Below, piece by piece: positions 19,251 to 63,088 of a DNA stretch of 64,000 nt (position 1 is the first letter of the stretch; each line of letters starts with the position of its first letter). Both the position numbers and the translations under genes were made by a program. The DNA lies in NCBI GenBank assembly GCA_002840905.1, contig PHDD01000015.1, positions 1 to 64,000 of the forward strand, given 5' to 3'. The DNA is from Bacteroidetes bacterium HGW-Bacteroidetes-4 (GTDB lineage: Bacteria; Bacteroidota; Bacteroidia; Bacteroidales; SZUA-534). The notes under the pieces were generated by a model. The model was not told where the DNA came from. It worked only from the letters and a program-made list of their open reading frames with translations, and did no database searches.

Positions 19251-20333
19251 TTAAAAACGGTAACCGGCTTTTTGAAGGTCGTTCAGGTTATTGATGGGTT
19301 TTTCGGGTTTTAATTGTTTGGCCAGATGCTGATAAATCTTAATCCGTATTTGCTTGGCTTCGCGGGTATCCATTCGGTCGAAGGAATGCCCCCCGGGAAC
19401 GGACTGAAAAATCTCATAGTCAAACTTTTTACCTTCGGCTTTCAACGATTTAATCAGGTGCTCCACTTCGAGCACATTCACATCGTCATCGCTGGTATTG
19501 GTATGTATCAGCAAAGGCGTGTTTTTAAATTTATGGACATTCCAGGCCGGTGAACGCCTGCGGTATTCCTGCACATTTTCATGTGCCGTTTGACCAATGT
19601 GATAACTGGCCGAGTACAGGTCACGGTATTCGTCGGTGTAATAACCCATGCGGCTGATTAAATCGCTTACAGGAACTCCGGCAAAAGCTACCTGAAATGC
19701 TTCGGGATGATCAAAAATATTCATCAGCGTTATTAGTCCGCCATGACTCCAGCCCATAATACCCACGCGGTTTTTATCGATAAAAGAGTAATTTTCAATC
19801 ATGTAATTACGGCTGGCAAAAACATCTTCTACTTCAAGCCCACCATAATCAATGTTTTGATAATGGCCCTTACCGTAGCCAGTGCTTCCACGATACTCTG
19901 CAGCAACCACCACATATCCCTGGCTTACCAGCTCGCGCACTATATGGGTATAGTAGGTAGTAAAATCGGCATGAACGCCACCATGAGGAAGTACAATCAA
20001 AGGATATTTTTTCGATACATCGAGATTTTTAGGGAAAAACGTATAGGACCAAAACTTGATGGGATTTCCATAACCCATAGCTGTGGTGTTTTTGTCGTTC
20101 CAGTGAGCCGGGCCGTAAATATATAATTTATCGATATGGGCCACATCGCCCAGTTTCTGATACCACAATAAATCGTCCACCATTTTTTCGAGACGATCGA
20201 GTCGGTGTTCCAGGTTCTCACTGTTCGAACGGATTTCTTTTAATTCGCTACTAACCGGTGTTTGCTCCTGGGCCGATACCCCGGACATTGATACATAAAT
20301 AGAAAAAAGGATGAAGGCAATAACGTTTCTCAT
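19251..20333 (-). CDS. Secreted S9-family (prolyl oligopeptidase-like) alpha/beta hydrolase
   Basis: Signal peptide, HGGVHADF oxyanion region, GIMGWSHGG nucleophile elbow, PGGHSF catalytic His. Confidence 0.88.
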   Translation of the reverse strand: MRNVIAFILFSIYVSMSGVSAQEQTPVSSELKEIRSNSENLEHRLDRLEKMVDDLLWYQKLGDVAHIDKLYIYGPAHWNDKNTTAMGYGNPIKFWSYTFFPKNLDVSKKYPLIVLPHGGVHADFTTYYTHIVRELVSQGYVVVAAEYRGSTGYGKGHYQNIDYGGLEVEDVFASRNYMIENYSFIDKNRVGIMGWSHGGLITLMNIFDHPEAFQVAFAGVPVSDLISRMGYYTDEYRDLYSASYHIGQTAHENVQEYRRRSPAWNVHKFKNTPLLIHTNTSDDDVNVLEVEHLIKSLKAEGKKFDYEIFQSVPGGHSFDRMDTREAKQIRIKIYQHLAKQLKPEKPINNLNDLQKAGYRF

Positions 20334-20411
20334 AGTTTTAAATTTTGTAAGCTGAGTTCAAATTTAAAAAACAATTCGGAATTATTGGTTCAGAATCAAG
20401 GAAGCGCTAAA

Positions 20412-20466
20412 AGGGATAAAAGTATTTAAAGTTCATCAAGTGACTAAAGTACTTAATATTCATCAG
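20412..20466. repeat. Two 27-bp degenerate direct repeats
   Basis: AAAGTATTTAAAGTTCATCAAGTGACT followed by AAAGTACTTAATATTCATCAGGTGGCT. Boundaries approximate. Confidence 0.65.
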
Positions 20467-20489
20467 GTGGCTAAAGGACTCAAACAGCC

Positions 20490-20804
20490 TTGCCTTAGTC
20501 TATTACACCAAAGCTTTAGTCGGGAACATCGAAGCTTTAGTTGACAATATCGAAATCCGTTCCGGGAACATCGAAGCCTTAGTCGGAAGCATCGAAGCCT
20601 TTTCCGAGAACATCGAAGCCTTAGTCAGCATCACCAAAGCCTTTTCCGGGAACACCGAAATCTTACTCGGGAACATCAATGCTTTAGTTGAAAAGACCCT
20701 TAGTGTTTTTGAGAACACACGAACTTTAGTTAAGAAGACCAAAGGTAATTTTGATAACACAAGAGCCTTAGTTGAGAACATCGAAGGTAGTTCCGGGAAC
20801 ATCA
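20490..20804. repeat. Degenerate 21-bp tandem array (15 units) with partial 42-bp alternation
   Basis: Units such as AAGCTTTAGTCGGGAACATCG, AAATCCGTTCCGGGAACATCG, AAGCCTTAGTCGGAAGCATCG, AAGCCTTTTCCGAGAACATCG, contiguous and constant at 21 nt from 20490 to 20804. Confidence 0.92.
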
Positions 20805-20859
20805 ATTAACAATGAGCAATAAACAATGAGCAATGGGCAATTAACAATAGAACAATGAA
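20803..20859. repeat. Heptanucleotide repeat array (CAATNNN)x8
   Basis: CAATTAA CAATGAG CAATAAA CAATGAG CAATGGG CAATTAA CAATAGAA CAATGAA. Confidence 0.88.
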
Positions 20860-20891
20860 TGAGTGAATAATGTGTAAGCAGTTGACAGGTT

Positions 20892-21006
20892 TCCAGTCTC
20901 TATTCATTAGTCTATCATCTGAAATCTTCAATCTAAAACCAAAAATCGCACATCGTTAATTTGAATGCTCTTTAGTCTTTGGTCTTTAGTCTATTGTCTA
21001 ATATTC
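20892..21006. repeat. Second heptanucleotide-period array (NNNNNTC)n
   Basis: TC (or CC) dinucleotides recur every 7 nt: C at 20898, 20905, 20912, 20919, 20926, 20933, 20940, 20947, 20954, then 20970, 20977, 20984, 20991, 20998. Confidence 0.8.
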
Positions 21007-21233
21007 GGATTTTTCTTATCCAAAAGCTAGCATCCCTGTATTTTCTGAAAGTTCCAGAGCCAAATTCCTTTTTTTTAAGCCCCATTATTAAGGTTTAATA
21101 CGAACTATTGAACGCAAAATATGCACACTTTACTGCGTGCTGTGCATTCATAATTAACCACTTAAAGGCGGGTTCGAACGTTTGAATGTATTGTTCGATA
21201 AATTTGCAATAGGCTGATAACAAGCTTGGTGTG

Positions 21234-21264
21234 TTTTGAACCTATCTATTTTATTCTATCTTTG
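21234..21264 (+). promoter_or_regulatory. Candidate Bacteroidota promoter (TTTG-N18-TATCTTTG)
   Basis: TTTG at 21235-21238, TATCTTTG at 21257-21264, 28 bp before the ATG at 21293. Confidence 0.5.
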
Positions 21265-21292
21265 CTGTCTGTATTAACCAAAATGTTCATGT

Positions 21293-22828
21293 ATGAAAAA
21301 AATTTTTACATTAATACTTGCCGCGGCTACCTGCGGACAATTATTTGCAGGAGGTATTGTTACCAATACCAATCAAAGTGCACAGTTTGTTCGAATGCTG
21401 TCGCGTAATGCATCAACCCAAATCGATGCCGTTTATTTTAACCCGGCCGGTGTAGTTCGTATGGATGATGGTTTCCATTTTTCATTGCACAACCAAACCA
21501 TCTTTCAAACAAAAACGGTAACCACTACTTTTCCCTTAAACAACAAGGAATTTGTTGGTGATGTTAAAGCCCCCTTATTTCCTTCATTTTTTGCCGTTTA
21601 CAAAAAAGACAAATTAGGCATCTCTTTTGGATTTGGACCCAATGGCGGTGGTGGTTCAGCTGAATATGCAGGCGGTTTGCCTTCATTCGAAATGCTGGTT
21701 TCACAAATACCCGGACAAATGACAGCCGCAGGTATTGCAACCGATGCGTATGATGCCAATATTTATTTTGATGGAAGTTCGGTTTACTGGGGATCGCAAT
21801 TAAACGTAAGCTATGCAATTAATGATATGCTTTCAGTTGCTGCGGGTGTACGCATGATTAATGCCAAAAATAACTATCAAGGTTACATAAAAGACATCAT
21901 GGTAAACCCAATGCACCCATTAAACACCGCTGGTGCCGGAAATTTGGTTTCTGCCCCTGCTTTTTTTAATATTATTGCTACTGCTTCCACGGGTGCTGCA
22001 AGCAATGTTGATCAATTAGCTCAGGGTGGAGTTCCTAATCTCGAATATGCAAGAGATAATAGTATTATTACTCCCGAACAGTACGCCCAACTTACTGGTG
22101 GATTAGGTGCTAATTATACTCCAGGAATGGCGCTTTCAACAGTTTCAGCCATGTATAACGGAGCTGCTGCTTTAGCTACTCAAAATGCCGCTGCAACCAG
22201 CGATATTGAAGTAGAAACCACCCAAACCGGAATGGCATTTACCCCAATTTTCAGTGCGCAATTCTCGCCCAACGACAAACTGGATATTGCCATTAAGTAC
22301 GAATTAAACACCAGTTTAACCTTAACCAACGATACCAAAAAAGATTATGCCGGTATGTTTAAGCACGACTCCAGCTTTAGAGCCGACATGCCAGCTATAT
22401 TAGCGATTGGTGTAGGTTACAAAATCAGTGATAAATTCCGTACCCAGTTATCATTTAATAACTACTTCGATAAACAAGCCAACTGGGAAGGCCGCGAAGA
22501 CAAGGTTGATAAAAACCTTTGGGAAGCTGCTTTGGGATTTGAATACGACATTAACGACATGTTTACTGCCAGTATAGGTTTTATGCGGGGTGTTACCGGT
22601 GTAAGTGACGAATACCAAACCGATTTAAGCTACAGTAACTCATCGACCACTATTGGTTTGGGAGTTCAGATTAAACCTATGGAAAACCTGTCGATCGACC
22701 TAGGAGGATTGTATGTAATGTATGATGATCATTCTGTAGATTATTTAAGCGGAACTCCTTATGCATACAATATGAATTATGCAAAAACTACTACAACCCT
22801 GGGAATTGGTGTAAACTACAAATTCTAA
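21293..22828 (+). CDS. FadL/OmpP1-type outer membrane channel
   Basis: Signal peptide, NASTQIDAVYFNPAGVVRMDDGFHFSLHNQ motif, beta-barrel pattern, C-terminal aromatic (GVNYKF). Confidence 0.88.
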   Translation: MKKIFTLILAAATCGQLFAGGIVTNTNQSAQFVRMLSRNASTQIDAVYFNPAGVVRMDDGFHFSLHNQTIFQTKTVTTTFPLNNKEFVGDVKAPLFPSFFAVYKKDKLGISFGFGPNGGGGSAEYAGGLPSFEMLVSQIPGQMTAAGIATDAYDANIYFDGSSVYWGSQLNVSYAINDMLSVAAGVRMINAKNNYQGYIKDIMVNPMHPLNTAGAGNLVSAPAFFNIIATASTGAASNVDQLAQGGVPNLEYARDNSIITPEQYAQLTGGLGANYTPGMALSTVSAMYNGAAALATQNAAATSDIEVETTQTGMAFTPIFSAQFSPNDKLDIAIKYELNTSLTLTNDTKKDYAGMFKHDSSFRADMPAILAIGVGYKISDKFRTQLSFNNYFDKQANWEGREDKVDKNLWEAALGFEYDINDMFTASIGFMRGVTGVSDEYQTDLSYSNSSTTIGLGVQIKPMENLSIDLGGLYVMYDDHSVDYLSGTPYAYNMNYAKTTTTLGIGVNYKF

Positions 22829-62730: not shown

Positions 62731-62903
62731 GCAACCTGCAAGTACCTCTTGATCCAAAAATTTTAGCATTTTACGCTTGCAACAGCCCTCTGATCCGAAA
62801 ATTTTAGCAGTTTACGTCTGTAACAAGCTCCTGATCGAAAAATTTTGCCTCTTTTGAGCTGTGAAAGTACCACTTATCTGAAAGTTTTGGCCCGTGCAAC
62901 TTT
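62731..62903. repeat. Degenerate ~41-bp tandem repeats
   Basis: GATCC(A/G)AAAATTTTAGCA.TTTACG recurs: GATC core at 62751, 62792, 62833 (exact 41-nt spacing), weaker copy near 62875. Confidence 0.82.
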
Positions 62904-63088
62904 GCAACAGGCAAACCGGAGGTCCGATCACCCCCTCGCAAGTTTGAAAGTGCCCAAACGGCCGTCGTTTACCTACTTTCAAATTTGCACCAGGGTCACC
63001 GAAGGTTCGATCACCCTCTCGCAGGTTTGAAAGTGCCCCGCCGTTTTCCATTTACCTACTTGCAAAGCTGCAACAGGGTCACCGGCGA
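62904..63088. repeat. 83-bp tandem repeat, two full units plus partial third
   Basis: 62904-62986 and 62987-63069 align end to end without gaps (GCAACAGGCAAACCGGAGGTCCGATCACCCCCTCGCAAGTTTGAAAGTGCC... vs GCACCAGGGTCACCGAAGGTTCGATCACCCTCTCGCAGGTTTGAAAGTGCC...); a third begins at 63070. Confidence 0.9.

Follow-up and report, generated by a model that had tools for sequence, protein, structure and literature searches.

A composite heptanucleotide array between divergent genes, a probable copy of a dispersed intergenic repeat element in a Bacteroidales genome

The window, the whole stretch of 64,000 nucleotides that was analysed, belongs to contig C20 of the 4.32-Mb genome of Bacteroidetes bacterium HGW-Bacteroidetes-4. 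The array described here lies between two divergently oriented genes, one encoding an S9-type peptidase and the other FadL/OmpP1-like (both named from reading their translations), about 230 bp upstream of the FadL promoter region. An orthologue of FadL with 58% identity was found in a Salinivirgaceae bacterium. The promoter region is kept in G002 and partly in G006, both without the upstream array; since the gap is not syntenic in these relatives, which carry other upstream genes, absence of the array there is weak evidence. Regulation of FadL by the array is unlikely, the promoter being conserved in relatives that lack it, and the array probably has no specific local role at this locus. A search of 20300-21320 against Rfam gave no match at E ≤ 1. 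Coordinates of all features are given in Table 1.

Table 1. Features of the gap, with window positions and the evidence for each
Feature	Position	Strand	Evidence
Composite heptad array (whole)	20801..21004	+	Lag-7 segment score 41.2; lag-7 identity 0.58 vs 0.28 in shuffles
CAATNNN block, 8 units, class B	20803..20859	+	TRF period 7; eight CAAT starts
Degenerate AGTGAAT-like and CAGTTGA-like heptads (a gap in the initial annotation)	20860..20896	+	Lag-7 identity 0.50, p 0.02 for 20860-20888; words read from sequence
TC-phased block, GTCT/ATCT words, classes E and F, degenerate	20897..20958	+	7-nt TC/CC steps 20897-20953; lag-7 z 5.3 for 20889-20958
GTCTNNN block, class E, phase shifted by 2	20969..21003	+	GTCTTTGGTCTTTAGTCTATTGTCT at 20975-20999; TRF
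Adjacent 21/42-bp array, associated, not heptad	20506..20800	.	Lag 21 0.57, lag 42 0.67, lag 7 0.23
27-bp array, 2.4 copies	20419..20484	.	TRF; flank BLAST and sequence
Conserved FadL promoter region, TTTTGAAC and TATCTTTG	21233..21264	+	Alignments with G002 and G006 orthologues

The initial annotation had described eight CAATNNN units, followed after about 30 bp by TC or CC recurring every 7 nt in two runs. The eight CAAT starts were located at 20803, 20810, 20817, 20824, 20831, 20838, 20845 and 20853, the seventh unit being 8 nt long. Both TC runs were borne out: the first keeps strict 7-nt spacing between 20897 and 20953, with a single CC variant at 20939, and the second (20969, 20976, 20983, 20990, 20997) is offset from it by 2 nt. 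Period 7 was called by TRF at 20803-20859 and 20969-20992. The comparison set beforehand as decisive, lag-7 identity against dinucleotide-preserving shuffles, gave 0.58 against 0.28 ± 0.03 for 20803-21006 (z 9.5), a value reached by 0/5000 shuffles. By block, and against the same kind of shuffle, identities were 0.68 (z 5.7) for CAAT, 0.59 (z 5.3) for the first TC block and 0.65 (z 4.7) for the second, and the two halves of the array are the top two lag-7 stretches within the 64-kb window. The two arrays first proposed are thus both periodic, but the interval held to separate them is itself heptad-like (0.50, p 0.02), with TGAGTGAAT and CAGTTGACAGG words; the array therefore runs continuously from 20801 to 21004 as a single composite.

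Membership of the adjacent 21/42-bp array in a common 7/21/42 period family, as had been suggested, was not supported, and it was rejected as a heptad array: its lag-7 identity is 0.23 against 0.26 expected. Its own family comprises four loci, at 20506-20800 in the window, C7:81662-81975, C14:177419-177624 and C22:1263-1583, lying within 80 bp of heptad words on C14, C20 and C22 and about 1 kb away on C7. The 21/42-bp array is a companion of the heptad arrays, not a member. Read on the minus strand, its window copy is open as a 7-residue repeat. The 27-bp repeat (AAAGTACTTAAA...AAGTGACT) also occurs beside heptads at C14 ~379870 and C41 ~169360. Other tandem repeats in the window are situated at 62745-62846 (41-bp, 2.5 copies) and 62895-63084 (83-bp, 2.3 copies).

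For the genome as a whole, 20-kb stretches were picked by position, resulting in an unbiased sample of 864 kb in which 9 arrays were found at lag 7 and no more than one at any other lag in the range 4-12. All six arrays in the first unbiased 464 kb were intergenic. When gene gaps were scored, 8/378 reached at least 13 at lag 7, compared with 0, 0 and 2 at lags 6, 8 and 9. Genomes of genus g5, from the same family, are richer, with 23/113 gaps at lag 7; lags 8 and 9 are raised there as well (9 and 6 gaps), and lag 6 gives 0. Other sampled Bacteroidales families have heptads with different words, or none. Among 148 Bacteroidota genomes, CAAT-core repeats of period 7 were present in 30 and of period 8 in 13; period 8 was substituted as the control because reversed words occur within heptad arrays too, confounding a reversed-pattern control. 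The proposal of an intergenic heptad class analogous to the STRRs of heterocystous cyanobacteria is thus upheld, period 7 exceeding neighbouring periods in this genome and in several relatives. The class is not a first discovery, as Bacteroidetes heptamer arrays had already been published (PMC4679880). What the initial annotation overlooked is the composite nature of the array and the recurrence of its words and their order at other loci.

A catalogue of 34 arrays was compiled, with CAGYNNN, CAATNNN, AGTGAAN, TCCGTNN, GTCTNNN, NTCTAAN and CCAGNNN as common words; part of it was collected with CAAT and GTCT probes, so that word frequencies are biased. Strand and block order were not used in collecting it. 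Word blocks no more than 200 bp apart agreed in strand in 130 pairs and disagreed in 11, the array pairs not being independent. GTCT preceded TCTAA (E>F) 8:0, AGTGA preceded GTCT (C>E) 5:0, CAAT preceded TCTAA (B>F) 4:0 and CAAT preceded AGTGA (B>C) 5:1; the order of CAAT and GTCT was only 7:4, and CAG blocks had no clear place. The usual block order is CAAT > AGTGA > GTCT > TCTAA. Blocks with a core of about 4 nt and about three freer positions thus co-occur in many gene gaps, on one strand and usually in the same order. The numbers of distinct alternatives at core and spacer positions were 10/2/3/5 vs 25/14/23 for CAAT and 25/6/14/11 vs 40/40/54 for GTCT, and g5 genomes retain GTC with different spacers. 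These counts suggest constraint on the core positions, a reading kept at that strength because an unaligned column test gave 482 invariant columns against 505 expected and hence no excess. Higher-order repeats of 14 and 28 nt were found in longer arrays, a pattern that slippage or unequal exchange would produce.

On C9, two arrays separated by 1.6 kb are identical at 142/153 positions without gaps over a CAG-CAAT-AGTG-CCGT-GTCT composite; a composite block was therefore copied between the two gaps. Elsewhere in this genome, a 240-bp array in which the block order is complete lies between nitronate-monooxygenase-like and M16-peptidase-like genes. The same gene pair in G002, G004, G005 and G008 carries no heptad array, and the gap array is most simply read as a lineage-specific gain. 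A larger mobile element with shared flanks was considered and rejected: flank BLAST picked up nothing beyond array-like words, neighbours that overlap, the two C9 arrays and copies of the 21/42- and 27-bp arrays.

The reading preferred here, with a probability of roughly 0.6, is that the window array is one copy of a dispersed, composite, slippage-expanded intergenic heptad-repeat element, shaped by slippage and block copying. Heptad units would be gained and lost through 7-nt replication slippage and unequal recombination, new arrays would begin by copying of a composite block into a gap, and gaps right after stop codons would be the most tolerant of arrays. Neither an insertion boundary nor a target duplication was found, nor an enzyme that would do the copying, which counts against this reading. 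Also to be counted against slippage and copying is that the retention of arrays in trp gaps, their bias to 3' ends and their conserved cores fit selection equally with drift.

The trp operon has the order E-G-D-C-F-B-A in all 6 genomes compared. Significant heptad arrays occupy E-G in 5/6, G-D in 4/6 and B-A in 4/6 genomes, and D-C, C-F and F-B in 0/6. The array-bearing gaps are those of G000, G002, G006 and, for the most part, G008 and G004, with words that differ among genomes; some gaps thus keep an array across genera as its words change. Heptads occur in trpE-G of the g5 genomes too, and none were found in this gap in G009, of the same family, or in genomes of four other families. Only 5/89 G002 gaps score as high as the trp arrays, so that three matching trp gaps are unlikely to arise by chance. 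Given such sharing with changed words, either the heptads are old and were rewritten in place, or these gaps are recurrent targets. The trp operon heptad arrays are situated at G000:C30:97450-98900 and 93174-93361 (L239). The trpE-G gap also contains a palindromic GCGGTGCA...TGCACCGC element, of which a second occurrence was found on C14.

Relative to genes, arrays lay within 40 bp of 3' ends in 16/23 cases vs 10/32 for 5' ends (p 0.007), gene ends being taken from ORF calls, which place 3' ends more reliably than 5' ends. In same-direction gaps the array was nearer the stop codon in 13/14 (p 0.002). Together with the recurrence of arrays across genera in three particular trp gaps, with changed words, and the lower variation of cores than of spacers, the abutment on 3' ends favours functional intercistronic or 3' elements under selection, which might serve, for instance, as sites for an RNA- or DNA-binding protein (4-nt cores at 7-nt spacing) or as spacers for transcript stability or translational coupling. 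Comparable roles have been proposed for STRRs (PMC2670836) and TAACTGA repeats (PMC4679880). Such selection is nevertheless an unlikely account of the arrays: orientation is not fixed, the trpG-D array being reversed in G002, the nitronate-monooxygenase gap points to lineage-specific gain, no regulator is known and no gene 3' end adjoins the window copy. Nor is there a common RNA fold. Folding gave a mean z of -0.08 across the 34 arrays and +2.1 for the window array, with a few loci folding strongly, and an RNA hairpin was rejected as a shared property. The more specific proposal, that the arrays form a selected, fast-evolving intercistronic class in the family, keeping period, core words and operon place, with a factor that would read 4-nt cores at 7-nt spacing, is decidedly unlikely.

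A model in which every locus slips on its own, nothing is copied from one to another and word likeness comes only from composition and polymerase preference would agree with the period-7 repeats of other families and their different words. In most genomes heptanucleotides are also more frequent than any other class of long SSR, and a polymerase footprint has been suggested (Mrazek 2007, as cited in PMC4679880). This account is improbable, however, since the recurrence of the same words at many loci, with shared strand and order, demands common ancestry or copying, as does a five-block composite that is 93% identical at two gaps. Quite improbable, too, is that the arrays are stop-codon cassettes, in which units containing TAA, TAG or TGA at a period not divisible by 3 would place stops in all three frames after a gene. 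Sense-direction stops in 3'-abutting arrays numbered 304 vs 198, with an excess in 12/15 arrays (p 0.035), and the trpE stop codon of G000 and G002, itself a TAG, runs on into heptads that end in TAG and keep strict 7-nt spacing; but the statistics are weak, with few independent words, CAGTTGG and TCCGTNN words need not contain a stop, and copies in divergent gaps such as the window array have no need of stops. Arrays templated or added by an enzyme, for instance by a reverse transcriptase copying a short repeat template, would fit the uniform period, diverse words and recurring block order, but are highly improbable given that slippage and copying already account for the data.

Heptamer arrays have been published as STRRs in cyanobacteria (PMC2670836), in Xanthomonas (PMC4692102) and in Beggiatoaceae and five Bacteroidetes (PMC4679880). 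The STRRs of heterocystous cyanobacteria resemble the present arrays in their 7-bp tandem units, intergenic location and many copies, also within operon gaps (hupS-hupL; PMC2670836); the arrays here differ in belonging to another phylum and in having no general hairpin, and no description of STRRs as ordered multi-word composites was found in the open-access literature. GGGGA(C/T)T of Nostoc PCC 7120 (PMC4692102), the sole cyanobacterial heptamer tested, gave no doublet in 568 kb. By analogy the arrays may be read as working like cyanobacterial STRRs, the published words tested being absent and a general fold unsupported. The TAACTGA repeats of Beggiatoaceae, Cyanobacteria and five Bacteroidetes are likewise intergenic heptamer direct repeats (PMC4679880), and long arrays and other heptamers have been reported from Bacteroidetes gaps (PMC4679880). 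They consist of a fixed single word, mostly just upstream of Beggiatoaceae start codons (PMC4679880), whereas many words and a lean to 3' ends are seen here; TAACTGA doublets or longer numbered 0 in 568 kb of this genome. Xanthomonas GGGAATC repeats share heptads with conserved and variable positions, non-coding and near stop codons (PMC4692102), and in two species most of them are flanked by the same genes, with large length variation (PMC4692102). They are G-rich and form G-quadruplexes (PMC4692102), in contrast to the AT-rich arrays here, and GGGAATC doublets, used as the test for G-rich GGGANTN heptads, numbered 0 in 568 kb.

Heptad repeats recur in distant phyla, and why the period is seven has no accepted explanation. 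Within the open-access literature searched, two things seem to be additions to what is known of heptads: a composite grammar whose blocks are copied, and a comparison of individual gaps between genera. In this genome, where period 7 stands out and composites are ordered, block copying and lineage-specific gain are both visible, and gaps with and without arrays lie next to each other in the trp operon of several related genera. How the arrays originate and turn over, and what function they might have, can therefore be tested at defined loci. Heptad arrays were also found within 600 bp of five contig ends, on C13, C14, C22, C40 and C41, and assembly breaks therefore probably conceal longer arrays.
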